Positions 29,485-51,090 of a DNA stretch of 64,000 bases are shown here, in pieces. The notes below the pieces were generated by a model. The model was not told the origin of the DNA. It did not search any database and saw nothing but the letters and a program-made list of their open reading frames with translations. The DNA is taken from positions 1 through 64,000 of the forward strand of contig JAHIVC010000073.1 of assembly GCA_018816945.1 (NCBI GenBank). The letters run 5' to 3'. The stretch comes from Bacteroidota bacterium. Its GTDB lineage: Bacteria > Bacteroidota > Bacteroidia > Bacteroidales > GCA-2711565. The translations under genes and the position numbers were made by a program. The first letter of the stretch is position 1, and each line of letters starts with the position of its first letter.

Positions 29485-29558
29485 TGGGGTGAGCAGGGTG
29501 AGTAAGTTGAGTGGTTGAGTGAGGTGAGTTGGATGAGTGGATGAGAAGGTTAAGTAAT
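29485..29558. repeat. GTGAGTAAG-type repeat array, left arm of locus 1
   Basis: Starting on the base after the cheR stop, degenerate 8-9 nt units (GGTGAGCAG, GGTGAGTAA, GTTGAGTG, GTTGAGTGA, GGTGAGTTG) run for about 70 bp, then give way to the leader of the four-helix-bundle gene. The same repeat family fills five loci of this region. Confidence 0.8.
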
Positions 29559-29582
29559 TACAGAAAAATATTATCTAAGAAA

Positions 29583-29969
29583 ATGAATGAAACAAAATCG
29601 ACATTTGAAACTTTAGAGGTCTGGATTAAATCCAGAGAAATGCGAAAGAAAATAGCAATCCTTTCAAAAAGCTTTCCCATGGAAGAGAAATATAAACTAA
29701 TGGATCAAATGATTCGGGCTTCACGCTCCGTTACTGCAAATATTTCAGAGGGTTATGGCAGATTTCATTTTCAGGAAAATATTCAGTTTTGCCGACAAGC
29801 AAGGGGATCATTATACGAACTAATTGACCATCTTTATGTAGGTTTAGATGAAGGGTATATTGATAATGACAATTTTATTAATCATAAAACTGAAATATTT
29901 GAACTTATAAAAATATTGAATGGATATATTAAATATCTGAAGGAGAGAAAAGAAGGAGAAATTAGGTAA
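29583..29969 (+). CDS. Four-helix bundle protein, 23S rRNA intervening-sequence protein (S23/IVP) family, copy 1
   Basis: From MNETKSTFETLEVW the product is 128 residues and almost entirely helical. It has the IVP-family signatures FETLEVW, LSKSFP, DQMIRASRSVTANISEGYGR, FCRQARGSLYEL and NGYIKYLKER. Relatives are encoded inside intervening sequences of 23S rRNA genes, and Avd of diversity-generating retroelements has the same fold; a nucleic-acid role is suspected but not established. Translation from a TTG at 29529 would start inside the repeat array, and the second copy (45751-46134) starts at the matching methionine. Repeat arrays flank the gene on both sides; the right-hand array begins at its stop codon. 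Confidence 0.9.
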   Translation: MNETKSTFETLEVWIKSREMRKKIAILSKSFPMEEKYKLMDQMIRASRSVTANISEGYGRFHFQENIQFCRQARGSLYELIDHLYVGLDEGYIDNDNFINHKTEIFELIKILNGYIKYLKERKEGEIR

Positions 29970-36358: not shown

Positions 36359-36609
36359 GTAGATGAGTAGGGTAAGTGAGGTGAGTAAGTGTAGTAGGGT
36401 AAGTGAGATGAGTAAGGTAAGTAAGGTGTGTAAGTTTAGTAAGGTGAGTAAGGTAAGTAAGGTAAGCAAGGAAATTAGCACTTTCACACTGAGCTGTACA
36501 TTGAGTTTATCGAAATGTTGTCGAAGTGCAACAACTCAACAACTTAACTTACTCAACAACTTAACTTACTCAACATACTCAACTACTTGACTCACTCAAC
36601 CACTAAACT
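36350..36609. repeat. Inverted repeat array of locus 3, with an embedded palindrome
   Basis: It starts at TTGAGTAGGTGAG, overlapping the stop of the hybrid kinase. Forward units (GGTAAGTGAG, GGTGAGTAAG, GGTAAGTAA and others) run to about 36468. The centre GGAAATTAGCACT matches that of locus 1. A different imperfect palindrome (36486-36529, CACTGAG to CGAAGTG) is inserted here, followed by complementary units (CAACTTAACTTACTCAA) up to about 36605. The array ends about 10 bp before the next ATG (36617). Confidence 0.88.
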
Positions 36610-36616
36610 AAAAAAA

Positions 36617-39600
36617 ATGAAAAAAATACTAGCAATCGACGACCAACAAGATAATTTAACCACCCTAAAGGCGGTTATAAAAAGCCAAATGCCGGATTGT
36701 ATGGTTTTGACTGCTTTGTCGGGGAAAGTAGGGATTGAAATAGCCCAAAAAGAACAACCCGACACCATTCTGTTGGATATCATCATGCCAAAAATGGATG
36801 GTTATGAGGTTTGTAAAAAACTCAAGGCCGATGAATTGACCAAACATATCCCGATCATCATGGTAACAGCCATTAAAACCGATTCAGAAAGTCGTGTTAA
36901 AGGGCTTAATTTAGGTGCGGATGCTTTTCTTTCAAAACCAATCGATGCGGTTGAACTCATGGCTCAGATAAAAGTTATGCTCCGAATCAAGGAAGCGGAA
37001 GATAAATTGCGTAAGGATAAAAACATGCTGGAAGAGTTGGTCAGGGAACGAACCAAAAAGTTGACGGAAAGTGAAGAGCAATTTCGATTAATTGCAGAAA
37101 ACACAAGCGATAATATTGGCATTACAACATTCGATCTCAAGGCGAAGTATCTTTATGTCAGTCCCTCCATAAAATCTGTTCTGGGTTATGAAGAGGAAGA
37201 CTTGATCGGAAAATCTTTTTTCGATTTTATCCATCCTGACGATAAAAAATTATTACTCCCTTTGCTCGCAGAATACGTGAGATCAAAAGCTAAAAAATTA
37301 TTCACGGGCAAGGAATTACCAACAAGCAGAACCATTGAATTCCGTTTTAAAAATAAAGCAGGCGAATGGCGTTTCCTTCAAAGCGCACTAAACATTGCGG
37401 GTGAGCATATTCTTGCGGTTTCGCGAGATATCACCGAACAAAAAGCTTTTGAATCAAAACTAAAAAGCAACGAAAGAATGCTCCGAGATATCATCGATAC
37501 TTCTCCAAATTTAATTTTTGTAAAAGACAGGAATGGGAAATATCTGTTAGTAAACAAAGCAATGGCTGATTATCACAGGACAACTCCTGAAAAATTAATT
37601 GGGACCTATGATTATCAGTTAGCAAAAGATTATTTTAAAACGAATGATTATAATGAGCTTCGAAAAACAGAACGGAATGTCATCTACACCAAAAACCCAT
37701 TTCATCTCATTGAAGATCATTTTATTAATGATTTTGGCGATGAACGATGGTTCCAAACAGTGATGCTTCCTTTCGACAACGCTGATAATCAAAACTGTAT
37801 TATGATTATCGCTATTGATGTGACAGATTTTGTCAGGACACGAGAAGCACTTAAAGAAAGTAATCTTCGGTTTCAGGAATTGGTTGAATTATTACCGGAA
37901 GCTGTCATTGAAACTGACCAAAACTTAACAATAACTTACGCGAATAAGCGTGCCAAAAAGTTATCAGGCTTTTCCAAAAATGATATTGCTAAAGGGGTAT
38001 ATGGGCTCGATTTATTAATTCCTGAAGATCGGGAAAGGGCAAGAGCATACTTTAACAATCGTGCAAAAGGATTAAGCCCTCCAAGAACAATACAATATCA
38101 AGCCATAAAAAAAGATGGCACCAAATTTCATGTTCATTTTCATGCCAGTCCAATTATTAAGGATGGTTCATTTAAAGGAATCAGAGCTGTCATAGTCGAT
38201 GTTTCCGGTCAAATAAAGATTGAACAGGAACTCCTTGATAGTCGTGATCAATATGAATCCCTTTTCAACCAAATCGCTGACCCAGTGATTGTTTTTGATC
38301 AGGAAACAAAATTATTTTTACATTTCAATACTGAGATGATCACAAAATATGGATTTTCAGCATCGGAATTGTATAAGATGACTCCCCATGATCTACATCC
38401 TGCTGATGCAGATTTGGAACAGATTAATAGGAACATCAATGATAAGACGCATGATACTCCAAACGAGTATATTCATAAAGGAAAAGACGGAACCCTTTTT
38501 TATGTTGAAACCCATACACAGGAAATCTTTTACAATGGCAGGGAAGCATGGATTACTATTATCAGAGACATCACCGATCGGAAGAAAACAGAAAATAATT
38601 TGAGGAAATCCGAGCAAGATTTCCGAGGTTTATTCGAGAATTCACACGATGCCATCATCATATTTGCGCCCGAAAGTGAAATAGTATTGGATGTGAACGA
38701 ACGCGCGTGTAAACTATACGGTTTAAGTCGCGGCGAGTTTATTGGAATGTCGTTAAAAAACATTTCACACGATGTAGCTGAAGGAGAAAAAAAAGTTCAA
38801 CGGATCCTGAAAGAAGGCTTTTTCAATCAACTTGAAACAATACATTACAAAAAAGACGGGAATCCATTATATCTGGAAATCAATGCTTCAATGGTTGAAT
38901 TTGGGGGCCAAAAGGCTATTTTAAGTAATAATCGGGATATTACAGAACGTAAACTGGCCGAAGATGCATATCACGAAAGTACAGAGAAATATCAAAATAT
39001 CTTCAATTCAATCAATGACGCAATTTTTATTATGAAGGATTACATCTTTACCTCTTGTAATCCAAGAACGCTCGAGATGTTTGAATGTAGTGAAGAAGAT
39101 ATATTAGGGCATCCTCCGAGTGATTTTTCACCGGAATATCAACCCGACGGAAAAAGCTCAACGCTCAAGGCTCAGGAAAAAATTGATGCTGTAATGGCAG
39201 GAATGCCACAATCCTTTGAATGGGTCCATTTGAAAAAAAATGGCAGTCAGTTTATCGCAGAAGTTTCATTAAACAAAATGACACTTAAAGATGGTGAATA
39301 CATCAATGCAATATTAAGGGATATTACTGAACGTAAACGTTCAGAAAAAATCCAAAAAGTACTGTACAATATTTCTGATGCGGTGAGCACCAGTAAAAAT
39401 ATTGAAGAGTTTATTGTCGCTGTAAAAGAAGAATTAGGGAATATCATCGACACCACGAATTACTACATCGCTTTTTATACTAAACAAACCGATACCTTTT
39501 ATATTCCATTTTATGCCGACGAATATGATGATTCCGAATTATTTCCTGCCGGGAAAAGCATGAGCAAGTATGTGGTAAAAAACCGAAAATCCTTATTGGC

Positions 39601-41014
39601 AACTTATGTACAACAACAAGAAATGGCAGATAAAGGGCTGATTGAATTCGTTGGGACTCGTTCTAAAACATGGCTTGGGGTGCCACTTGAAGTTGACGGA
39701 GAGGTCATGGGCGTGCTGGCTGTGCAAAGCTATACCGATGAAAATGCTTATAATGAAACCGATTTGAAATTACTTGAATTTGTATCTGATCAAATCAGCA
39801 TTTCACTCGAACGAAAAAAAAATGAGCAGGATTTAAAGGTAGCACTTGCTAAAGCAACCGAATCCGACCAGTTGAAATCAGTGTTTCTGGCAACCATGTC
39901 GCACGAATTGCGAACGCCACTTAATGCCATTATTGGGTTTTCCGATATTATCAATAAAGATTTACCAATAGATGATATAGTCCAATTTAATCAGACGATT
40001 AATAACAGCGGGAACCATCTGCTTACAATCGTTGAGGATTTATTCGATATTACGCTTATTGATACAGGAGAAATAAAAATCATCCCAGAAGTTATTAACA
40101 TAGGCTCTTTGCTTAATGAAGTAAAGGAAATAATAAAAATTGAACAGCAAAAACTTAAGAAGAATGAGGTTGAGTTGAAACTTATCATCCCGCCTGAAGG
40201 AAACGGTTTAATGATTAAAACTGATCCTGCACGGTTGAAACAAATTTTGATCAATCTATTAAAAAATGCCCTTAAGTTTACTGATAAAGGCTCTGTTAAG
40301 TTTGGCTTTACCTTAAATATGGTCAGTGAGCCTCAGGTTACTGAGCGTAGCCGAAGTACCGAACTGAAATTTTTTGTAATAGATACGGGTATAGGTATTC
40401 CAAAAGACAAACAGAAACTAATTTTCGATATTTTTCGTCAGGTTGAAGATACAGATACCAGAAAATATGGAGGAACAGGTATTGGATTGTCGATTTCAAA
40501 AAAATTATCACAGCTGCTTGGAGGTGATATTTGGATTGAATCGGAAAAGGGCCGGGGTAGTTCATTCTTTTTTACAATACCAATGGAACAAAGCATTGCA
40601 GTAAATACTTCTATAACTAATGGCAACGACTTAAAAGGCAACCCGAAGGATAATATAATTCTGGTGGTTGAGGATGATGAACCAAGTTTTGAATTTTTAA
40701 AAGTTATCCTAAGCAAGTCGGGCTATAAAATAATCTGGGCCCTAAATGGAGAGGAAGCAGTAACAATATGTAAAGAAAATATGGATATTGATTTAGTGCT
40801 GATGGATATCAATATGCCTGTTATGAATGGTTATGATGCGACAAAGGCCATAAAAAAGCTTCGTCCATCACTCCCGATCATAGCACAAACGGCATATGCT
40901 GTATCCGGGGACCGTGAAAAGGCAATAGCTGCCGGATGCGATGATTATATTTCAAAACCGATCAAAAATGAGTTGTTATTAGATAAAATTGGGAAATTAT
41001 TTTCCAATTTATAA
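36617..41014 (+). CDS. Giant hybrid histidine kinase, REC-PAS(6)-GAF-HisKA-HATPase-REC
   Basis: From MKKILAIDDQ this is 1465 residues, soluble, with no membrane segment. An N-terminal receiver (1-125, D54) is followed by six PAS domains (about 150-880) and a GAF domain (about 890-1060). The kinase core has H1096 in MSHELRTPLNAIIGF, then HATPase, and a C-terminal receiver covers about 1345-1465. Receivers at both ends suggest a relay kinase that takes phosphate from one partner and passes it on. It is a close paralogue of the kinase at 46345, most similar in the first receiver and from GAF to the end. A palindromic repeat is read in frame inside the ATPase domain. Translation from a TTG at 36587 would start in the repeat array and is unlikely. 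Confidence 0.93.
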   Translation: MKKILAIDDQQDNLTTLKAVIKSQMPDCMVLTALSGKVGIEIAQKEQPDTILLDIIMPKMDGYEVCKKLKADELTKHIPIIMVTAIKTDSESRVKGLNLGADAFLSKPIDAVELMAQIKVMLRIKEAEDKLRKDKNMLEELVRERTKKLTESEEQFRLIAENTSDNIGITTFDLKAKYLYVSPSIKSVLGYEEEDLIGKSFFDFIHPDDKKLLLPLLAEYVRSKAKKLFTGKELPTSRTIEFRFKNKAGEWRFLQSALNIAGEHILAVSRDITEQKAFESKLKSNERMLRDIIDTSPNLIFVKDRNGKYLLVNKAMADYHRTTPEKLIGTYDYQLAKDYFKTNDYNELRKTERNVIYTKNPFHLIEDHFINDFGDERWFQTVMLPFDNADNQNCIMIIAIDVTDFVRTREALKESNLRFQELVELLPEAVIETDQNLTITYANKRAKKLSGFSKNDIAKGVYGLDLLIPEDRERARAYFNNRAKGLSPPRTIQYQAIKKDGTKFHVHFHASPIIKDGSFKGIRAVIVDVSGQIKIEQELLDSRDQYESLFNQIADPVIVFDQETKLFLHFNTEMITKYGFSASELYKMTPHDLHPADADLEQINRNINDKTHDTPNEYIHKGKDGTLFYVETHTQEIFYNGREAWITIIRDITDRKKTENNLRKSEQDFRGLFENSHDAIIIFAPESEIVLDVNERACKLYGLSRGEFIGMSLKNISHDVAEGEKKVQRILKEGFFNQLETIHYKKDGNPLYLEINASMVEFGGQKAILSNNRDITERKLAEDAYHESTEKYQNIFNSINDAIFIMKDYIFTSCNPRTLEMFECSEEDILGHPPSDFSPEYQPDGKSSTLKAQEKIDAVMAGMPQSFEWVHLKKNGSQFIAEVSLNKMTLKDGEYINAILRDITERKRSEKIQKVLYNISDAVSTSKNIEEFIVAVKEELGNIIDTTNYYIAFYTKQTDTFYIPFYADEYDDSELFPAGKSMSKYVVKNRKSLLATYVQQQEMADKGLIEFVGTRSKTWLGVPLEVDGEVMGVLAVQSYTDENAYNETDLKLLEFVSDQISISLERKKNEQDLKVALAKATESDQLKSVFLATMSHELRTPLNAIIGFSDIINKDLPIDDIVQFNQTINNSGNHLLTIVEDLFDITLIDTGEIKIIPEVINIGSLLNEVKEIIKIEQQKLKKNEVELKLIIPPEGNGLMIKTDPARLKQILINLLKNALKFTDKGSVKFGFTLNMVSEPQVTERSRSTELKFFVIDTGIGIPKDKQKLIFDIFRQVEDTDTRKYGGTGIGLSISKKLSQLLGGDIWIESEKGRGSSFFFTIPMEQSIAVNTSITNGNDLKGNPKDNIILVVEDDEPSFEFLKVILSKSGYKIIWALNGEEAVTICKENMDIDLVLMDINMPVMNGYDATKAIKKLRPSLPIIAQTAYAVSGDREKAIAAGCDDYISKPIKNELLLDKIGKLFSNL
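40324..40377 (+). repeat. Palindromic repeat inserted in frame in HATPase domain, copy 1
   Basis: These 54 bases are identical to 50406-50459 in the paralogous kinase. The core GGTTACTGAGCGTAGCCGAA plus GTACC is an imperfect hairpin of the dispersed CTGAGCGTAGCCGAAG type, normally intergenic in Bacteroidota. It encodes about 13 extra residues (SEPQVTERSRSTE) between two ATPase strands, where related kinases have a short turn (residues about 1236-1254). Confidence 0.75.
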
Positions 41015-41062: not shown

Positions 41063-41701
41063 ATGAACCAGGTAAAAAGATACAGCGTTTTGCTGGAGCA
41101 AGCCTTACTCTCCTTGGATCAGGAAGCAGCCGAACGAATCATTCTGGAGGCAGAAATTGCCAGTTCGCCAATTAAAACAGCGGGTGACTTAATATCTGCT
41201 ACTTTAGTAAGAATAGGCGATTCATGGGAGTCGGGAAATCTATCTTTATCGCAAGTATATATGAGTGGTATCATTTGCGAAAAAGTAATTGATAAAATTT
41301 TACCGCCACAAAGCCCGATCAGAAAAAGCCAACCTAAAATGGCCATTGCCGTAGTCGAAGACTTTCATTTGCTGGGTAAAAGAATCGTTTATTCAACTTT
41401 ACGTGCAAGTGGATTTGAACTTATGGATTTAGGTGGAGGATTAAGTATTGAACGCATTGTTGACATTGTAAGAACCGAAAAAATAAAAATCTTACTGCTT
41501 TCAGTCCTAATGTTACCCTCCGCACTTCGGATTAAAAAATTGAAAGATCAATTAAAAGACAAAGATGTGATTATTGTGGTTGGAGGTGCACCTTTTAGGT
41601 TTGATGATGAATTATGGAAAGAGGTTGGAGCCGATTATTATGGTAAAGATTCATCTGAAGCTTTGGGAATTGTAAATAAAATTATGGAGGGAAGCATATG
41701 A
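41063..41701 (+). CDS. Corrinoid (B12-binding) methyl-carrier protein
   Basis: The 212-residue protein resembles MtbC/MttC-type corrinoid proteins: a helical cap (about 1-85) followed by a B12-binding Rossmann domain (about 90-212). The signature DxHxxG is intact as D100-F-H102-L-L-G105, placing H102 as the lower cobalt ligand; SVLMLPS (147-153) and VVGGAPF follow as usual. Such proteins carry a methyl group between two methyltransferases; the fold is also used in B12-based sensors. The stop overlaps the start of the methyltransferase-like gene by four bases, so the products are made together. A kinase gene lies on either side. Confidence 0.9.
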   Translation: MNQVKRYSVLLEQALLSLDQEAAERIILEAEIASSPIKTAGDLISATLVRIGDSWESGNLSLSQVYMSGIICEKVIDKILPPQSPIRKSQPKMAIAVVEDFHLLGKRIVYSTLRASGFELMDLGGGLSIERIVDIVRTEKIKILLLSVLMLPSALRIKKLKDQLKDKDVIIVVGGAPFRFDDELWKEVGADYYGKDSSEALGIVNKIMEGSI

Positions 41702-42738
41702 AAACATCTGAAATGACCCCGATGGAGCGTGTTTTAACCACACTGTCGCATAAAGAACCCGACCGTGTTCCTTTGTTTTTATTACTCACCATGCGTGGCG
41801 CAAAAGAACTGGGATTGGGGATAAAAGAGTATTTTTCGAAAGCTGAATATGTTGTTGAAGGGCAAATAAAACTGCAAAAGAAATACAATATAGATTGCTA
41901 TTTTCCATTTTTTTATGCCCCTATTGAAGTAGAAGCTTTTGGCGCAGAAGTAATTTACAGAGAAGACGGGCCCCCAAATTCAGGACTTCCCCTTATTCAT
42001 AACATCAACGATATTAAAAAGCTGGAAGCGCCAAAGGTTCGTGACTCGCAAGTATTGCATAAAGCATTAAAATCAATTGAGATACTGAAAGAAGAAAGCA
42101 AAGGAAATATCCCTATCATTGGAGTTGCCGTGTCGCCCTTTTCATTACCTGTAATGCAACTTGGATTTGAAAAATATCTTGAACTCATGTTTTATCACGA
42201 AGATTTATTCAATCATTTAATGCAGATCAACGAAGCCTTTTGTGTGGATTGGGCGAATGCACAATTAGCAGCCGGAGCTACTGCCATATGCTATTTCGAT
42301 CCGGTCTCCTCTCCTACCCTCATCCCTAAAGAATTTTATATTAAAACGGGCTTTCAGGTGGCTAAACGAACCATCGCTAAAATTAAAGGCCCGACTGCTA
42401 CTCACCTCGCTTCAGGAGATTGTTTAGCACTGGCCGATTTACTGCCCGAAACAGGAACAGCGGTTGTAGGGGTCAGTACACATGAAAATATCAGCGAACT
42501 TAAACAGGCCTACAAAAACAAATTAACTATTTTGGGAAACTTAAATGGAATTGAAATGAGGCGTTGGACAAAAGAGGAAACTAAAAATATTGTTAAGGAG
42601 GTGATTAAAAAAGCAGCTCCGGGGGGTGGATTTATCTTGGCCGATAATCATGGTGAAATACCATTTCAGGTTAAAGACGAAACCTTGCTCTCAATAACAG
42701 AGGCTGTAAGAGAATACGGAACTTACCCTATTAAATAA
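41698..42738 (+). CDS. MtaA/CmuA-like methyltransferase (uroporphyrinogen decarboxylase superfamily)
   Basis: The 346-residue TIM-barrel protein aligns with the methylcobamide:CoM methyltransferase branch of the UroD superfamily (MTPMERVLTTLSHKEPDRVP start, FGAEV, ATHLASGD, ILGNLNG, GGGFILADN-GEIP). Known members hold catalytic zinc with a His-x-Cys pair plus a distal Cys. Here the first block reads H236-L-A238 and the distal block reads N317-H318-G-E-I-P, so two cysteine ligands appear replaced; C242 is the only cysteine nearby. It may bind metal differently or serve as a non-catalytic methyl or corrinoid partner. It is coupled to the corrinoid protein upstream and is 11 bp from the DUF1638 kinase downstream. 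Confidence 0.85.
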   Translation: MKTSEMTPMERVLTTLSHKEPDRVPLFLLLTMRGAKELGLGIKEYFSKAEYVVEGQIKLQKKYNIDCYFPFFYAPIEVEAFGAEVIYREDGPPNSGLPLIHNINDIKKLEAPKVRDSQVLHKALKSIEILKEESKGNIPIIGVAVSPFSLPVMQLGFEKYLELMFYHEDLFNHLMQINEAFCVDWANAQLAAGATAICYFDPVSSPTLIPKEFYIKTGFQVAKRTIAKIKGPTATHLASGDCLALADLLPETGTAVVGVSTHENISELKQAYKNKLTILGNLNGIEMRRWTKEETKNIVKEVIKKAAPGGGFILADNHGEIPFQVKDETLLSITEAVREYGTYPIK

Positions 42739-42749
42739 ACGCAAGTCAG

Positions 42750-45641
42750 ATGAATGAAAAATTGGTAATAGCAGCTTGTAACTTTTTAATACCCGAAATT
42801 GCACAGGTTATTAAAAATGGGGATTATCCGGAGGTACAATTGATCTCCTACCCGGTCAATTGCTCCTCGAATGCACTTAATTCGGCCAAGGTCTCTGAAA
42901 TCGCATCGAAATCGGTTTCAGCGTCTGACATTATCGTTATAGGGAGCTTTTGTCATTCACCGCAAAATTCAGAAATCCAGGGCAGTAAAGATGTTAAGGT
43001 TGTTCAATTGGAACAATGTTTTGAACTTATTTTAAACCCCGAAACCATTTATCATTTTGTGCAACAAGGTTATTATATTGTAACCAATGGTTGGCTGAGA
43101 ACTTACGAACGCAATATTCACGATTGGGGATTCGACAAAGCATCTGCCCGGTCGTTTTTTAAGGAATCGATGAAATCCATCTTGCTTTTGGACACAAAAA
43201 TTCCGGGCGATTATATGCCAAACCTTTTGGCTCTTTCCGAATATATGGGATTGCCATTCGAGATTATCCCGGTTGGATTATCTCATTGCAAAAAATATCT
43301 TGATTCGGTAGTATTGAATTGGAGAAACGAGCACGAACAAATAAAACTAAGCAATAAACTTTCAGCAATTTCCAAACAAAGTGCCGATTACAGAGTTATA
43401 TTCAATCAATTGGAAACGCTTGTTTTACTTACAAACGAAACAGAAATTACTCAAATTGCCTTCGAACTGATAAATATATTATTCGCTCCTTCCAAAATTG
43501 TTTATAAGCTTATTAATAATAAGCAGGAAGAATTATTTGATTTTAAGGGAATTTTCAATAATGAAGATTTCAATGCTGAAAATACATTTAATATAGAAAT
43601 TAAACATACGAACGAATTGTTGGGAACCTTTGAAGTAAAAGGTCTTCAGTTTCCGCAATTTAAAAAGAAATATGAGGAGATGGGTGTTGTGATCAGTCAG
43701 ATATTTGGAATGGCCATTGCAAATGCACGTAAATATTCTGAACTCGAAGATGCCAAATGGCTTATTTCTGAAAGTGAGATAAAATATCGAAGCTTATTTG
43801 ACAATATGCACGATAGTTTTGCTTTACACCAGATCGTACTGAATAAAGAAAATGAAGCGATAGATTATATTTTTACTGAGATTAATTATGCTTTTGAAAA
43901 GCAAACAGGATTAAAAAGGGAAAACATTATCGGACATAAAGTTACGGATGTTTTACCCGGGATTGAGAATGACCCTACCGGATGGATTGAACTATATGGG
44001 AAAGTAGCCCTGACAGGAGAAAGTGTGAGATTTGAAAGTTTCGCAAAGCCCATAGGTAAGTGGTATAATATATATGCATATTGCCCTAGAAAAGGTTTTT
44101 TTGCCACAATTTTTGAAGATATAACCCAACGTAAACTGGCAGAAGAACAAATCAGAAAACTTTCTACCGCCGTTGAGCAGAGCCCGGTTTCAGTTGTAAT
44201 AACTGATACTGATGGGAATATTGAGTACGGAAATCAAACAGTCTTCGATTTGACGGGATATACGCCTGCTGAAGTTTTAGGAAAAAATCCGCGCATCTTC
44301 AGTTCAGGGGAAATGCCAAAGAGGGAATATGAAAATTTATGGAACACCATTTTATCCGGGGAAATCTGGCATGGTGAATTTCATAATAAAAAGAAAAATG
44401 GAGAATTGTATTGGGAACGAGCATCTATATCAGCCATTAAGAATTCACAAGGCGAAACAACAAACTTTTTAGCAATAAAAACCGATGTTACCGAGTTTAA
44501 AAACATCCTTCATTCAATTGAAAAAAGTGAAGAAAAATACCGGCTCATTACCGATTTCGCTTCGGATGTAATTTGGGTGTTGAACCTTACACAAATGAAA
44601 TTTACCTTTATCAGCCCTTCAATCATTCATTTAAGGGGATATTCGGTTGAAGAGGCAATGGCGCAAGGGTTGGAAGAATCATTAACTCCTGAATCTGTGC
44701 TAACCGTGCGCAAATTAATTGAAGAAAGTATAAATAAATTTATCAAAGATTCCAAAGAAGAAAATTTCTACATCAATGAAATCCAGCAGCCCTGTAAGGA
44801 CGGGCGTATTATTTGGGTAGAGGTATCTACAAAACTCAAATTAAACAATGATGGTGAAATTGAGGTAATTGGTGTCAGCAGGAACATTGATCAACGTAAA
44901 CAAACTGAAAAAGAATTGCGGGAAAATGCATCGAAACTCAGTGAACTAAATGCCACCAAGGATAAATTTTTCAGCATCATTGCCCACGATTTAAAAGGGC
45001 CCTTCAATTCATTGCTGGGATTCAGCGAATTATTGAAGGATGAAATTGAAAATGGCGATTTTTCAGAAGTTTCAAGATTGAGCTCCTTCATTCACGAAAC
45101 CTCAAATAAAACCTATGATTTATTATTAAATCTATTGGAATGGTCGCGTTCGCAAACCGGTAAAATTAAATTTAACCCTGAGTCTGTAAAATTATCTGAA
45201 TTAGTGGATAAAATTTTTGAATTATCAAACAATCAGGCAGAGAAAAAAGAGATATCATTGAACAGTGAGATTCCGGGAGATTTAAAAATATTTGCCGACA
45301 AATACATGCTGGAAACCATTATCCGGAATTTGGTTTCGAACGCGATAAAATTTACTCCAAAAAATGGAGAAATTATTGTAAAATCTATTATTCAGGATGA
45401 TGTTGCTCAAATTATTGTATCAGATTCAGGAGTTGGGATTCGTAAAGAAAACATTGAAAAACTTTTTTCGATCGACAGCAATATAAGTACCAATGGAACA
45501 GATAATGAAAAAGGAACAGGTCTTGGGCTTATTCTGTGTAAAGAGTTTGTTTCGGCTCATGGTGGCGAAATTTGGGCAGAGAGTGAGATTGGAAAAGGAT
45601 CAACATTTTATTTTACGATACCTTTGGTAATAGGTAAGTAG
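42750..45641 (+). CDS. Histidine kinase with N-terminal DUF1638-like domain, GAF and PAS
   Basis: Residues 1-195 of this soluble 963-residue protein match the layout of DUF1638 proteins: IAAC near the start (C10), further cysteines C68 and C90 (VQLEQCFELI), the YYIVTNGWLRTYE and GFDKASARSFF segments, then LLLDT and GLPFEI. A degenerate GAF (about 215-328), three PAS domains (338-462, 470-585, 592-715) and a kinase core (H746 in IIAHDLKGPFN; ATPase about 850-960) follow. DUF1638 genes are known next to corrinoid methyltransferases. Here the domain is fused to a kinase and follows a corrinoid protein and a methyltransferase homologue, suggesting it senses their state. There is no receiver domain. 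Confidence 0.85.
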   Translation: MNEKLVIAACNFLIPEIAQVIKNGDYPEVQLISYPVNCSSNALNSAKVSEIASKSVSASDIIVIGSFCHSPQNSEIQGSKDVKVVQLEQCFELILNPETIYHFVQQGYYIVTNGWLRTYERNIHDWGFDKASARSFFKESMKSILLLDTKIPGDYMPNLLALSEYMGLPFEIIPVGLSHCKKYLDSVVLNWRNEHEQIKLSNKLSAISKQSADYRVIFNQLETLVLLTNETEITQIAFELINILFAPSKIVYKLINNKQEELFDFKGIFNNEDFNAENTFNIEIKHTNELLGTFEVKGLQFPQFKKKYEEMGVVISQIFGMAIANARKYSELEDAKWLISESEIKYRSLFDNMHDSFALHQIVLNKENEAIDYIFTEINYAFEKQTGLKRENIIGHKVTDVLPGIENDPTGWIELYGKVALTGESVRFESFAKPIGKWYNIYAYCPRKGFFATIFEDITQRKLAEEQIRKLSTAVEQSPVSVVITDTDGNIEYGNQTVFDLTGYTPAEVLGKNPRIFSSGEMPKREYENLWNTILSGEIWHGEFHNKKKNGELYWERASISAIKNSQGETTNFLAIKTDVTEFKNILHSIEKSEEKYRLITDFASDVIWVLNLTQMKFTFISPSIIHLRGYSVEEAMAQGLEESLTPESVLTVRKLIEESINKFIKDSKEENFYINEIQQPCKDGRIIWVEVSTKLKLNNDGEIEVIGVSRNIDQRKQTEKELRENASKLSELNATKDKFFSIIAHDLKGPFNSLLGFSELLKDEIENGDFSEVSRLSSFIHETSNKTYDLLLNLLEWSRSQTGKIKFNPESVKLSELVDKIFELSNNQAEKKEISLNSEIPGDLKIFADKYMLETIIRNLVSNAIKFTPKNGEIIVKSIIQDDVAQIIVSDSGVGIRKENIEKLFSIDSNISTNGTDNEKGTGLGLILCKEFVSAHGGEIWAESEIGKGSTFYFTIPLVIGK

Positions 45642-45750: not shown

Positions 45751-46134
45751 ATGAGTGATACAAAATCAACGTTTGAGACATTGGAAGTTTGGATTAAATC
45801 TAGAGAATTGAGAAATCAAGTTTCTAGACTTTCAAAAAGTTTTCCTACTGAAGAGAAATACAGATTAATAGATCAAATGATCCGAGCTTCTCGTTCTGTT
45901 ACTGCGAATATTGCAGAAGGATATGGGAGGTTCCATTATCAGGAAAACATTCAGTTTTGCAGACAAGCAAGAGGTTCATTATATGAACTAATAGATCACT
46001 TATCCGTTGCTCATGATGAAAATTATATTGATGAAGAAGCTTATAGAAAGGCAAAATTGGAAATACTGGGAATAGTAAAATTATTGAACGGATATATAAA
46101 ATATTTGAAAGAGAGAAAGGAAATGGGAAAATAG
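45751..46134 (+). CDS. Four-helix bundle protein, S23/IVP family, copy 2
   Basis: The protein is 127 residues and closely similar to the copy at 29583-29969 along its whole length. Shared blocks include TKSTFETLEVWIKSRE, DQMIRASRSVTAN, FCRQARGSLYELIDHL and NGYIKYLKERKE. The amino-terminal half is nearly identical and differences gather in the third helix. It begins at the methionine that sets the start of copy 1. The gene is enclosed by the same repeat arrays, and its stop codon again abuts the right-hand array, so gene and arrays look like one repeated unit. No ribosomal RNA gene is nearby. Confidence 0.92.
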   Translation: MSDTKSTFETLEVWIKSRELRNQVSRLSKSFPTEEKYRLIDQMIRASRSVTANIAEGYGRFHYQENIQFCRQARGSLYELIDHLSVAHDENYIDEEAYRKAKLEILGIVKLLNGYIKYLKERKEMGK

Positions 46135-46344: not shown

Positions 46345-49300
46345 ATGAAAAAAATACTTGCCATCGACGACCAACAGGATAATTTAACCACCCTAAAGGC
46401 GGTTATTAAAAACCAGATACCTGATTGTATTGTTTTGACTGCCTTGTCGGGGAAAGAAGGGATTGAAATAGCCCAAAAAGAACAGCCCGATACCATTTTG
46501 CTCGATATCATCATGCCTAAGATGAATGGTTATGAGGTTTGCAGGAATTTGAAAAACGATGAATTGACCAAACATATCCCGATCATCATGCTGACTGCCA
46601 TCAAAACCGATTCAGAGAGTCGAGTTAAGGGCCTTAACATGGGTGCAGATGCTTTTTTGGCAAAGCCTATTGATCACGCGGAACTAACAGCGCAGATAAA
46701 AGTAATGTTTCGGATTAAAGATGCAGAAGATCGTTTGCGAACCGATAAAAAAGGATTGAAAGAAATAGTTAAGGAACAGTCTTTCTCATTGCGAGAGAGC
46801 GAAGAAAAATACAAAGCTCTTTATGAGAATGCTCCTTTACCCTATCAATCATTAAATGAAGATGGCAGTTTTAAAGATATTAATCCAGCCTGGCTTACAA
46901 CACTAGGTTATAAGAAGAGCGAAGTTATTGGAAAGTTTTACAAAGACTTTCTTCATCCTGATTCGCAAAAACATTTTGAGAAAAATTTTCCGGCTTTTAA
47001 AAAACGGGGGTATGTGAGTGATGTTCAGTTTAAGATCCGACACAAAGACGGCCATTATCTCGACATCTCCTTTGAAGGCTGCATTGGTTATTATCCTGAT
47101 GGTAGTTTCAGACAAACTTATTGCGTTTTTCAGGATATCACTGAACGTAAACTTATCGAAAAAACACTACAGGAGAGTGAAACGAATTATAAAAACCTTT
47201 TTGATCAATCCCCTGCCGGTTCGGTGATTGTAGGTTTGGATAAACGGTTTGTAAAATGCAATAAAGCATTCTGTAATTTTTTAGGATATAACGAGAGCGA
47301 ACTTATTGGCAAAACCATAGCAGAGATTACTCATCCCGACGATATTGAGATCGGAATGGCAGAAATGAAACAGATTCTAGAAGGTAAAATTAAAACCGTT
47401 TCGCTTGAGAAACGTTACCTTCATAAAAATGGAAGTAGTTTATGGGGCCAGGTTGTTATTTCCATAGTGCGAGATACAACAAATAAACCCTTGTATTTTC
47501 TGCCAATTATAGAAGATATCACCGAACGAAAATTAGTAGAAATAGCATTAAAAGTAAGTGAAGAAAAGTATAAATACCTGTTTAATTCTATCAGGGATGC
47601 AATTCTGGTGTCAGATAAAGATCGAAATATTATTGATTGCAACACTGCTTTTACCAAACTCTTTGGATATTCCAAGAATGAAATCATTGGCAGGAAAACA
47701 TTGTGTTGTTACGAGAGCGAAGAGCAATTTATGGCACTTGGAAAGGCTTTAAAAGAAAACTTTACTAAATCAACCCCTTTCTTGTACACGGTCAACTATA
47801 AGAAAAAGAATAAGGTTGTATTTCCAGGCGAAACGGGTGTTTATTACCTGAAAGACAATGATGGTAATGTATCCGGATTTATCGGTTTAATTCGGGATGT
47901 TACCGAACGAAAATTAGCAGAACAGAAACTCATTGCAGCTAAAAATGAAGCCGAAGAAAGCGAACTGAAATACCGTTCCCTTATTGAAAACACAAATGAT
48001 GTTGTTTTTTGTGTTGATGAAAAAGGTGAATATAAATTTACCAACCAGGTATTTGCAAAAACATTTGGAAAGACTCCCGATTTTTTTGTTGGCAAAAATT
48101 TTTGGGATATTTATCCAAAAGAAGAAGCCGATCATCGTTTTGCCGCGGTTAAAGAAATGTTCCGTACAGGAGAAGTTCAAACTATTGAAGTGAGTGTTCC
48201 TCTGCCCGACAGAACATTATACTATTTGGCAAAGGCAAATCCCATCAAAGATGAAACCGGCAAAATAATTTTAAATCTGACAACTGCAATTGACATCACG
48301 GAGCGTAAGCAAGCCGAACTTGAACTTGCCGAAAGCGAAGAACGTTTTAAATCGTTGCATAATGCCTCTTTTGGCGGCATAGCAATTCATGACAAAGGAA
48401 TAATTCTTGAATGTAATCAAGGTCTTTCGGAGATGACAGGATATTCTTTGGACGAACTTATAGGAATGGACGGTTTATTGCTTATTGCCACCGAACACAG
48501 AGAAATGGCTATGAATAAAATCGTAACTGGTTATGAAAAACCATACGAAGCCAATGGTTTGCGTAAAAATGGAGAACAATTCCCAATGCAATTAGAGGCG
48601 AGGAATGTTCCATACAAAGGTAAAAATGTCAGAACAGTTGAATTTAGAGATATTACCGACCGAAAATTAGCAGAAATAGCATTGAAAAATAGCGAAGAAA
48701 AGTTTCGCAAAGCATTTATCACCAGTCCCGATTCTATCAATATTAACCGCCTTGATGATGGATCTTTTGTTACCATCAACAATGGTTTCACACAAGTTAT
48801 GGGTTATACAGAAGAAGACGTTATTGGCAAAACCTACATGGAATTTAATATTTGGAGAAATCAGGAAGACAGAAAAAAATTAATTGAAGGATTAAAAGCA
48901 AAGGGTATCGTTGAGAATCTTGAAGCAGAATTTTGTGCTAAAAACGGGGACATCAAAAACGGCTTGATGTCGGCAACTATCATCGAATTTGACGGAACAG
49001 CACATATTTTAAGCATTACAAGAGACACTACTGTTCAAAAAAAAGCAGTAGAAGGGATCATGCAAAGAGAATCACTCTTAAAAACAATTTTTGATTCAAC
49101 GGCCGATGGACTTTTAGTGGTAGATAATAAAGGGTTTGTAACCCATAAAAACTCGGAGTTTATTCAGATGTGGAGAATTCCTGCAAATCTGCATAATTCG
49201 GTAGATGACAATGAGTTAATTAAAACGGTATTGGACCAATTAATTGATCCGGATCAATTTGTATCAAAGGTCAAAAAATTATACAACAGTAAATTGTCCG

Positions 49301-51090
49301 ACCGGGATATGCTTTATTTTAAAGATGGGCGCATATTTGAACGGAAGTCTCAACCACTTATTATCGAAGATAAGATTTCAGGCAGGGTCTGGAGCTTTTC
49401 AGATATTAGTGAACGAAAGCGCTCGGAACAAATTCAAAAGGTTTTATACAACATCTCCGATACGGTTACCAGTAGCGATAACATCGAAGAACTCATTGCC
49501 AAAATAAAAGATCATTTATCCGGTATTATCGATACCACGAATTATTATATTGGCCTATATGATGATCGAACAAAGATGATTTCCCTCCCATTTGTTGCTG
49601 ATGAAAAAGATGAGATTGAATCATTTCCTGCAGAAAATTCCCTGACCGGTCATGTAATCAAAACACAAAAATCATTATTGGTCACTGCCTATCAACAGGA
49701 AGAAATGATGAAGAAAGGGATTATCAAATATGTGGGTTCACGCTCCCAAGTATGGCTAGGAGTGCCCCTTACAATTGATGGAGAAGTGAAAGGCGTACTT
49801 GCCGTACAAAGTTATTCTGATAAAAATGCATACAATGAATCTGATCGGCAGTTACTTGAATTTGTGTCTGATCAAATTGGTTTATCCATTGAAAGAAAAC
49901 AAAAAGAACAAGAATTAATCAGTGCCCTTGAAAAAGCAACGGAATCCGATCGCTTAAAATCCGCTTTCCTTGCTACCATGTCGCACGAATTACGCACACC
50001 GCTAAATGCCATTATCGGATTCTCCGACATTATAAAAGAAGATTTGCCCATCAACGAGATCATCGAATTCAATCATACAATTAATTCAAGTGGAAACCAT
50101 CTTTTGACCATTGTTGAGGATTTATTTGATATTACCTTAATCGAAACCGGAGAACTCAAAATTATAAAAACTGACGTTAATCTGGATGCATTGCTGAACG
50201 AGGTGAAGGAAATAATTAAAATTGAACAATTGAATTTAAAAAAGGCAGATTTAGAATTGAACCTGACCATTCCCGGTTCAAAAAAGCAACTAAATGTAAA
50301 AACAGATCCCTGGCGTTTGAAACAAATCTTGATCAACCTGTTAAAAAACGCACTAAAATTTACGCATAAAGGCTCTGTTAATTTTGGCTTTACCTTAAAT
50401 ATGGACAGTGAGCCTCAGGTTACTGAGCGTAGCCGAAGTACCGAACTGAAATTTTTTGTCAGGGATACCGGTATTGGGATTCCAAAAGACAAGCAAGAAT
50501 TAATTTTTGATGTATTTCGCCAAATCGAGGATTCACATACCCGAACTTATGGAGGGACCGGAATTGGTTTGTCCATTTCCAGAAGATTAACTGAACTTTT
50601 GGGAGGCCGTATGTGGGTTGATTCAGATACAAATGGCAGTTCTTTTTATTTCACCATTCCGTTAGAACTGATTATTGATCAGGATAAACCAGGCATAAAA
50701 GCTGAATTAAGTTCAGCATCTATTAAGGATAATACCATACTGGTAGTTGAAGATGACGAATCAAGTTTTGAATTCTTAAAAGTGATACTTAAAAAGACAA
50801 CTCAATTTATACTCTGGGCCCCAAATGGGGAAGAGGCAATCAGACATTGTAAAAATAATCCTGCTATTGATTTGGTGCTTATGGATATCAATATGCCGGT
50901 TATGAATGGTTATGACGCCACCAAAGCCATAAAGGAGTTTCGGCCCAATCTCCCAATCATTGCACAAACAGCCTACGCAATCGCAGGTGATCGTGAAAAA
51001 TCTCTTGCAGCCGGTTGTGACGATTATATTTCAAAACCGATAAAGAGAGACGAGCTTTTGGATAAAATAAAAAAATTGTTGAGTAGTTGA
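46345..51090 (+). CDS. Giant hybrid histidine kinase, REC-PAS(7)-GAF-HisKA-HATPase-REC
   Basis: This protein of 1581 residues is paralogous to the kinase at 36617. The first receiver is nearly identical (MKKILAIDDQQDNLTTLKAV; D54), then come seven PAS domains (about 150-1010) that are mostly different from the paralogue's. GAF, kinase core (H1214 in MSHELRTPLNAIIGF), ATPase and a C-terminal receiver (about 1460-1581) are again closely alike. The two genes thus share input and output receivers but differ in sensing modules, as expected after duplication and PAS shuffling. No membrane segment is present. The same palindrome-derived insertion is found in the ATPase domain (residues about 1354-1372). 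Confidence 0.93.
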   Translation: MKKILAIDDQQDNLTTLKAVIKNQIPDCIVLTALSGKEGIEIAQKEQPDTILLDIIMPKMNGYEVCRNLKNDELTKHIPIIMLTAIKTDSESRVKGLNMGADAFLAKPIDHAELTAQIKVMFRIKDAEDRLRTDKKGLKEIVKEQSFSLRESEEKYKALYENAPLPYQSLNEDGSFKDINPAWLTTLGYKKSEVIGKFYKDFLHPDSQKHFEKNFPAFKKRGYVSDVQFKIRHKDGHYLDISFEGCIGYYPDGSFRQTYCVFQDITERKLIEKTLQESETNYKNLFDQSPAGSVIVGLDKRFVKCNKAFCNFLGYNESELIGKTIAEITHPDDIEIGMAEMKQILEGKIKTVSLEKRYLHKNGSSLWGQVVISIVRDTTNKPLYFLPIIEDITERKLVEIALKVSEEKYKYLFNSIRDAILVSDKDRNIIDCNTAFTKLFGYSKNEIIGRKTLCCYESEEQFMALGKALKENFTKSTPFLYTVNYKKKNKVVFPGETGVYYLKDNDGNVSGFIGLIRDVTERKLAEQKLIAAKNEAEESELKYRSLIENTNDVVFCVDEKGEYKFTNQVFAKTFGKTPDFFVGKNFWDIYPKEEADHRFAAVKEMFRTGEVQTIEVSVPLPDRTLYYLAKANPIKDETGKIILNLTTAIDITERKQAELELAESEERFKSLHNASFGGIAIHDKGIILECNQGLSEMTGYSLDELIGMDGLLLIATEHREMAMNKIVTGYEKPYEANGLRKNGEQFPMQLEARNVPYKGKNVRTVEFRDITDRKLAEIALKNSEEKFRKAFITSPDSININRLDDGSFVTINNGFTQVMGYTEEDVIGKTYMEFNIWRNQEDRKKLIEGLKAKGIVENLEAEFCAKNGDIKNGLMSATIIEFDGTAHILSITRDTTVQKKAVEGIMQRESLLKTIFDSTADGLLVVDNKGFVTHKNSEFIQMWRIPANLHNSVDDNELIKTVLDQLIDPDQFVSKVKKLYNSKLSDRDMLYFKDGRIFERKSQPLIIEDKISGRVWSFSDISERKRSEQIQKVLYNISDTVTSSDNIEELIAKIKDHLSGIIDTTNYYIGLYDDRTKMISLPFVADEKDEIESFPAENSLTGHVIKTQKSLLVTAYQQEEMMKKGIIKYVGSRSQVWLGVPLTIDGEVKGVLAVQSYSDKNAYNESDRQLLEFVSDQIGLSIERKQKEQELISALEKATESDRLKSAFLATMSHELRTPLNAIIGFSDIIKEDLPINEIIEFNHTINSSGNHLLTIVEDLFDITLIETGELKIIKTDVNLDALLNEVKEIIKIEQLNLKKADLELNLTIPGSKKQLNVKTDPWRLKQILINLLKNALKFTHKGSVNFGFTLNMDSEPQVTERSRSTELKFFVRDTGIGIPKDKQELIFDVFRQIEDSHTRTYGGTGIGLSISRRLTELLGGRMWVDSDTNGSSFYFTIPLELIIDQDKPGIKAELSSASIKDNTILVVEDDESSFEFLKVILKKTTQFILWAPNGEEAIRHCKNNPAIDLVLMDINMPVMNGYDATKAIKEFRPNLPIIAQTAYAIAGDREKSLAAGCDDYISKPIKRDELLDKIKKLLSS
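50406..50459 (+). repeat. Palindromic repeat inserted in frame in HATPase domain, copy 2
   Basis: It is identical over 54 bases to 40324-40377, in the same place of the ATPase domain of the paralogue. Sequence around it is also very similar (a few mismatches in about 40 bases upstream) while more distant parts of the domain differ more, suggesting gene conversion or strong constraint. Confidence 0.75.

Follow-up and report, generated by a model that had tools for sequence, protein, structure and literature searches.

A corrinoid protein, a URO-D protein and a DUF1638-histidine kinase in one operon: a candidate sensory input built from corrinoid methyltransferase parts

The operon and its three products

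The first 64,000 nucleotides of contig JAHIVC010000073.1 from a Bacteroidota bacterium (order Bacteroidales, assembly GCA_018816945.1), called the window hereafter, hold a tight operon of three genes on the forward strand (Table 1). The first gene overlaps the second by 4 bases and a gap of 11 bases precedes the third; the coordinates of the open reading frames (ORFs) confirm on this point the layout given in an original prediction from the sequence alone. The products are a corrinoid protein of 212 amino acids, a 346-residue protein with the URO-D/MtaA fold and a 963-residue DUF1638-PAS-histidine kinase. We regard it as fairly probable that the three genes form the cytoplasmic input of a two-component sensor built from corrinoid methyltransferase parts.

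Table 1. Operon genes, their domains and the neighbouring hybrid kinase genes in the window.
Feature	Position	Strand	Basis
Corrinoid-carrier protein, B12-binding_2 cap and B12-binding	41063..41701	+	Pfam; phmmer to 7xcn, 3ezx
DxHxxG cobalt-ligand motif, D100/H102/G105	41360..41377	+	Sequence; intact in 23/23 corrinoid proteins of loci
URO-D/MtaA-fold protein, altered zinc site	41698..42738	+	Pfam; alignment to MtaA 4ay7
Histidine kinase: N-terminal DUF1638, unnamed conserved stretch, PAS domains, HisKA, HATPase	42750..45641	+	Pfam; hydropathy
DUF1638 domain, residues 1-200, with C10, C38, C68, C90	42750..43349	+	Alignment; model pLDDT 89
Conserved stretch, residues 197-333, GAF-like by eye	43338..43748	+	Local hidden Markov model
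HisKA dimerisation/phosphoacceptor domain, residues 737-804	44958..45161	+	Pfam; His in FFSIIAHDLKGPF
HATPase_c domain, residues 851-959	45300..45626	+	Pfam
Hybrid gene with response regulator, PAS, GAF, histidine kinase and response regulator parts, ends 48 bases upstream of the operon	36587..41014	+	Pfam; position
Second hybrid gene of like architecture, downstream of the operon	46345..51090	+	Pfam

Pfam recognises B12-binding_2 (3.6e-8) and B12-binding (3.6e-17) in the first product. Its phmmer relatives are the solved trimethylamine and monomethylamine corrinoid proteins as well as 8j2w-8j2y, which are named cobalamin-binding and GGDEF proteins and which we take to be photocobilins. The cobalt-ligand motif reads D100-F-H102-L-L-G105 and is intact, as originally proposed; it is kept in all 23 corrinoid proteins seen across the related loci described below (18 plus 5 more). 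Pfam shows the two B12-binding domains only, without the helix-turn-helix that a CarH-type B12 photoreceptor has in the same protein.

The second product matches Pfam URO-D at 1.1e-54, and a structure model of the URO-D of a relative (L020) superimposes on MtaA (4ay7) with a TM-score of 0.86 by target length. We take the zinc ligands of MtaA to be His-x-Cys...Cys, the set that TIGR01463 (MtaA/CmuA methylcobamide methyltransferase) calls for. This set is absent from the window protein, which in the alignment to 4ay7 retains H236, has lost both Cys ligands and places H318 at the last-Cys position. In NCBIfam the corrinoid and URO-D proteins are nearest to methanogen corrinoid proteins and to MtaA/CmuA, both far under the curated cut-offs: 84.4 bits vs 215.3 for TIGR02370 (methyltransferase-cognate corrinoid protein) and 117.4 vs 235.4 for TIGR01463. 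The pair shares folds and families with MtaA/CmuA and the corrinoid proteins MtaC and MtbC, but differs in these scores and in the changed zinc ligands; the operon differs further from MtaA/CmuA systems in having neither an acceptor enzyme nor a reactivase.

The third product is a histidine kinase with HisKA (1.2e-7) and HATPase_c (1.7e-25) domains, in which the H, N and G boxes are seen by eye. Its N terminus, said earlier to look like DUF1638, does match this family (2.9e-9, residues 46-183; 37.5 bits for PF07796 vs a gathering cut-off of 27). The stretch between DUF1638 and PAS is conserved and unnamed in Pfam; a local hidden Markov model (HMM) of it finds seven proteins of group IA (defined below), all of them seeds, and also the non-seed kinase of an Azoarcus plasmid (1.8e-13). 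By hydropathy, with a 19-residue mean of at least 1.6 taken as membrane-like, no such stretch was found in the window kinase, in four other IA kinases, in four of five IC kinases or in either Azoarcus kinase. Because the window kinase has none, its input is probably cytoplasmic, where the corrinoid protein would be. Three of the five other kinases of the window peak at 2.5-3.1, and two are without a membrane-like stretch.

Cysteines C10, C68 and C90 of DUF1638 are invariant in 30 aligned members. A fourth position is Cys in six group IA rows (C38 in the window) and Leu, with His in the next column, in the other 24. In an AlphaFold model of kinase residues 1-200 (mean pLDDT 89) C10 ends strand 1, and C38, C68 and C90 come after strands 2, 3 and 4. 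These places at or after strand ends suggest that the cysteines could form a single metal or cluster site. The best Foldseek match of the fold, the PrpR domain 2pju (E 7e-4, TM-score 0.46, rmsd 9.1), was set aside and no function was drawn from it; in a second look with VIA every row stayed below Z 8.

Related loci and their linkage to kinases

PF07796 matches were found in 5 of 395 genomes of the phylum, 6 of 119 of relatives and 23 of 393 of the order (overlapping sets). They make 29 distinct DUF1638 loci: 17 of class I (corrinoid protein, URO-D and DUF1638), 9 of class II (MttB type, with MttB seen in seven and the contig-cut L048 and L055 assigned from other neighbours), two with RACE (L023, L025) and one other (L053). 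A URO-D search of the 393 order genomes added seven class I loci, among them members that PF07796 overlooks (G496, G620 and G627, recovered by this search only), and a scan of genome contigs added L018 and L019, giving 26 loci with this URO-D type. A further URO-D search of 385 phylum genomes was positive in five and revealed no new locus. L019 and L089 lie at the very start of their contigs, where a corrinoid gene would escape observation, and L086 has the URO-D alone. DUF1638 is single-copy in the whole draft genome of the window (99.5% complete). No PF07796 match was found in five genomes of the window's genus (completeness 68-100%), nor a locus in the four genus members listed.

Linkage to a kinase is the main property of these loci. 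Of the 24 loci open to judgement, 20 have a kinase directly joined to the set, either by fusion with its last gene or as the next gene on the same strand. These 20 include L064, whose DUF1638 frame is broken, and L088, with a run-together frame; the contig edge lies right after DUF1638 or within the next gene in the other two (L024, and L062, whose cut gene has PAS domains). Of the 24, the remaining four are L028, with a kinase directly upstream, L063 and L087 of one genus, where none is seen, and L086. None of the nine MttB-type loci has a kinase next door (Fisher p = 1.9e-5, a guide only since the loci are related). Some of the loci annotated by the linkage HMMs had also served as their seeds; Pfam checks of the kinases covered the window, L018, L019, L020, L026, L027, L029, L088-L091 and Azoarcus, and not L056-L061, L064, L065 and L085. 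DUF1638 is fused to the kinase in the window, L018, L019, L065, L085 and Azoarcus, and L020 has a URO-D-DUF1638 fusion with the kinase immediately after. The domain arrangement modelled for this L020 fusion (pTM 0.64) was not used. L088:8412-9896 joins URO-D, a DUF1638 remnant and kinase in one frame of 494 amino acids, perhaps a deletion or an assembly fault.

The original prediction had named conserved linkage to the kinase as its own test, and the outcome is strongly positive, with the same layout in a betaproteobacterium (see below). The opposite arrangement, in which the pair sits with a substrate methyltransferase and a reactivase and has no kinase, is seen in Bacteroidota only with distant proteins: the MttB clusters share DUF1638 and not the URO-D, and the URO-D of the RACE cluster L025 branches with MtaA/CmuA.

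The URO-Ds fall into three groups. Group IA comprises the window, L018, L019, L028, L063, L065, L085-L088 and Azoarcus; His replaces the last zinc Cys, in a site that reads NHGE (DHGE in L086; L088 unread). In group IB (L020, L024, L026, L056-L062, L064) the site is mostly SNADIP, and DUF1638 is separate or, in L020, fused to the URO-D. Group IC (L027, L029, L089-L091) has Tyr-Tyr-Cys-Gly and GT-xVMP. All readable kinase-linked URO-Ds are altered, none having the complete MtaA ligand set. CmuA and L025 show that set by eye, although in the alignment the last Cys is displaced by one column in either protein and the middle Cys likewise in L025, and the URO-D of a Thiodictyon plasmid retains the first His and the last Cys. 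In a tree of 29 rows, built by a quick method without the partial L019 and L088 and with long enzyme branches that raised a tool warning, the 25 URO-Ds of the loci split from MtaA, CmuA, L025 and Thiodictyon with an SH-aLRT support of 95. The URO-Ds of three loci without a following kinase (L063, L087, L086) nest inside group IA, so that these loci look like losses.

A kinase also follows the URO-D in three loci, L089-L091, where no DUF1638 was found; hhalign, run for the L089 and L090 kinases, detects no hidden copy in them. Among the ORFs of the loci, an HMM built from the N-terminal domain of the L089-L091 kinases recognises, besides these, the kinases of L027 (1e-64) and L029 (2e-55) and a further kinase of L091, and nothing else; Pfam gives the L091 domain a weak GAF hit only.

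Thirteen of the 17 loci compared with the window have 17-30% identity to it in all three proteins and still keep the set. Within group IA identity to the window is 54-83% for the URO-D, 45-78% for the corrinoid protein and 24-81% for DUF1638 (four loci). The identity matrices of 18 loci correlate with r = 0.90, 0.93 and 0.77 among the three proteins, a level reached in none of 2000 permutations. These comparisons indicate that the three proteins diverge together as an old, linked set.

A plasmid from outside Bacteroidota, pAZKH of Azoarcus sp. KH32C, shows the same order: corrinoid protein, URO-D, DUF1638-kinase and then a hybrid kinase. The Azoarcus URO-D is 55% identical to that of the window and falls within group IA in the tree; its gene has a 4-base overlap as well. 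DUF1638 scores 22.5 there, below the Pfam cut-off of 27, and 9.5e-18 with a local HMM. This module is flanked on one side by formylmethanofuran dehydrogenase and fae genes and on the other by a block with a methanol/ethanol pyrroloquinoline quinone (PQQ) dehydrogenase and further tetrahydromethanopterin genes, with RuBisCO about 15 kb away, so that the copy sits inside what its annotated genes identify as a methanol-oxidation island. A Thiodictyon plasmid carries corrinoid protein, URO-D protein and RACE genes followed, with a 4-base overlap, by a gene for a GAF-GGDEF protein (L093:7332-12323), a run in which a diguanylate cyclase could receive corrinoid input. Together the two plasmids suggest that C1 (one-carbon) compounds may be sensed with variable outputs. 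In plasmid searches neither the L091 kinase domain nor the L056 DUF1638 had a match, and the L060 URO-D led back to the Azoarcus record and to nothing else. By gene content and order, the predicted module occurs fused to or beside a signalling kinase in at least two phyla. With no match in the genus, the distribution of the locus is patchy and not that of a whole lineage. This agrees with horizontal spread, as does the place of the Azoarcus URO-D inside group IA.

This recurrence already contradicts the idea that kinase and corrinoid genes came together by coincidence where kinases are numerous. Several hybrid kinases are indeed present in the window. However, 13 of 14 separate kinase genes begin at most 24 bases from the preceding gene or overlap it (start codons set mechanically), fusions exist and the order returns in another phylum, which makes coincidence most improbable.

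A candidate kinase input and its alternatives

In the mechanism that we propose, the URO-D protein would bind a small methyl (C1) compound and exchange a methyl group with the corrinoid protein. DUF1638 would read the state of the latter (methylated, Co(I) or Co(II)), possibly via its conserved cysteines. With DUF1638 part of the kinase in the window genome, docking or electron exchange could alter autophosphorylation, and the phosphate would be handed to one of the neighbouring hybrid regulators. We thus infer that the module is the input of the kinase, the signal methyl transfer or cobalt state, DUF1638 the reader and the ligand a C1 donor, methanol being an example of our leading guess. That the corrinoid pair serves as kinase input, as originally proposed, is well supported by comparative genomics as far as the conserved linkage, the fusions and the recurrence in a betaproteobacterium go; dispensable DUF1638 in L089-L091 and the three loci without a kinase count on the other side. 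A wider view is tentative: a corrinoid methyltransferase may have been turned into a general sensory input, in which the corrinoid protein, together with an MtaA-fold protein whose active site has been rebuilt, would report cobalt methylation or redox state to DUF1638 and neighbouring sensor domains, and these would drive the histidine kinase. The Thiodictyon output would then perhaps be the diguanylate cyclase, alongside the plasmid's own reductive activator.

Several observations weigh against the sensory input. DUF1638 is neither indispensable nor the only reader, since L089-L091 do without it, and its fourth position (Cys in 6 of 30 rows, His one column on in 24) need not correspond to a single common ligand. 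Some linked kinases are less clearly soluble: seven of nine IB kinases have one or two stretches above 1.6 (maximum 2.06) and L027 has one (1.65). In L063 and L087 the corrinoid protein, URO-D and DUF1638 remain but the stretch seen shows no kinase, and in L086 only the URO-D is left. Signalling genes also lie near more enzyme-like clusters, such as the Thiodictyon run and L023, where a large kinase follows a RACE/DUF1638 cluster after 242 bases; gene neighbourhood cannot separate an input from a co-regulated enzyme. The methanol link comes from one plasmid, and PQQ alcohol dehydrogenase, a marker of methanol use, is over the cut-off in none of 23 Bacteroidota genomes.

The operon could alternatively encode an ordinary small demethylase, its kinase merely regulating this enzyme or its pathway, a view that we hold to be unlikely. 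The intact corrinoid motif would suit it, and RACE is present elsewhere in 5 of the 23 genomes holding such a locus, where enzymatic cycling is possible. It would also have a parallel in the mec cassette (MecA-J) of anaerobic dichloromethane degraders, the closest system among those met in print. According to the available sections of PMC9768040, this cassette clusters a PocR histidine kinase and a response regulator with a corrinoid protein and URO-D family proteins, has products that become more abundant on dichloromethane and includes likely reactivation proteins in MecG/H. Those sections also describe an MTII, several URO-D family proteins, a transporter, a separate kinase gene with PocR input and a proposed catabolic role, unlike the window, where the kinase has no PocR, the URO-D protein is single and neither MTII nor transporter is among the scanned proteins. 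In L019, genes for a MEDS protein and for a PocR kinase do lie near the DUF1638-kinase.

A demethylase is further opposed by gene content. The original claim that no substrate methyltransferase or reactivase lies nearby is borne out, none being found among 13 flanking proteins scanned out of the 43 ORFs of the window. RACE (PF14574) and MttB (PF06253) have no match in the whole draft genome, and no operon was found that unites MTI, a corrinoid protein, MTII and a reductive activator into a complete corrinoid methyltransferase system, with MttB and RACE as the families searched genome-wide. Among the 23 genomes RACE has no match in 18 and MttB none in 22. The demethylase would also leave unaccounted for the fusion of DUF1638 to the kinase itself, the altered zinc ligands of every readable kinase-linked URO-D and the same minimal set in two phyla.

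In another alternative no methyl donor takes part, and the module senses the corrinoid itself (B12 supply) or cell redox by way of cobalt and the cysteines of DUF1638. It would agree with the B12-binding relatives 8j2w-8j2y and with photocobilins and CarH as sensors elsewhere, as well as with the positions of the three invariant DUF1638 cysteines, one closing strand 1 and two shortly after strands 3 and 4. DUF1638 is tied to corrinoid chemistry because, in the available sections of PMC5764234, it is required with a RamA-like protein for B12-dependent methionine synthesis in Phaeobacter, which links it to B12 reactivation. There PGA1_c13340 is of the same family and has an adjacent corrinoid protein gene, but it stands alone and its distribution tracks the RamA-like protein (PMC5764234, same sections), whereas the window DUF1638 is fused to a kinase in a genome without a RACE match. 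Pure B12 or redox sensing explains neither why the MtaA-fold protein is the best-conserved part in group IA nor the methanol-island setting in Azoarcus, and we consider it quite improbable.

CarH and photocobilins are one-protein B12-based light sensors; like the proposed module they use B12-binding domains for sensing, but they are not known to have a methyltransferase partner. MsmS and RdmS of Methanosarcina are sensor kinases tied to corrinoid methyltransferases and respond to heme or thiol redox; we know of no corrinoid/URO-D/DUF1638 input module in them. No description of such a kinase system was found in the literature searched, with subscription journals mostly outside its scope. To our knowledge, corrinoid methyltransferases are known as metabolic enzymes, not sensors, and bacterial sensing of methanol and other one-carbon compounds is poorly understood. 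If the C1-sensing input holds, a conserved corrinoid-to-kinase module would be a concrete, cloneable candidate for this task, DUF1638 would gain a signalling function and an enzyme system would have been repurposed for sensing. If the general sensory input holds as well, small C1 compounds would be sensed by cobalt chemistry rather than by simple binding.

Neighbouring genes and other clusters

Seven of the 13 flanking proteins scanned are signalling proteins (CheR, a PAS protein, two hybrid kinases, a CHASE kinase and an OmpR-type pair), fewer than the original statement that all neighbours are of this kind. The other six are two PF05635 proteins, an outer-membrane barrel, a Porph_ging protein, a MacB/FtsX protein and one without match. 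The two hybrid kinases on either side of the operon are possible phosphorelay partners of the window kinase, which has no receiver domain; they have very similar N termini and like architecture. The PF05635 proteins (29529-29969 and 45751-46134), of the 23S rRNA intervening-sequence type, lie amid signalling genes.

Other clusters have their own particular genes. In L053:5894-9384 a sigma-54 response regulator and a kinase of the histidine type immediately precede DUF1638, and no corrinoid or URO-D gene is found in the 11 kb seen. L021:1-12620 encodes part of a methionine synthase, MTHFR, a corrinoid protein, two MttB, a hydantoinase-like protein, DUF1638, a pterin-binding protein, an S-adenosylmethionine methyltransferase and an S-adenosylhomocysteine hydrolase; clusters with similar gene sizes are L022, L049, L050, L052 and L054. 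Directly after the DUF1638-kinase of L019 (4013-8051) come a MEDS-domain protein and a PocR-PAS histidine kinase. MEDS and PocR are predicted sensors of small hydrocarbon derivatives, according to a title cited in the available sections of PMC9768040. A chemoreceptor with a zinc-binding CZB domain is encoded directly upstream of the class I operon in L026:9377-11257.

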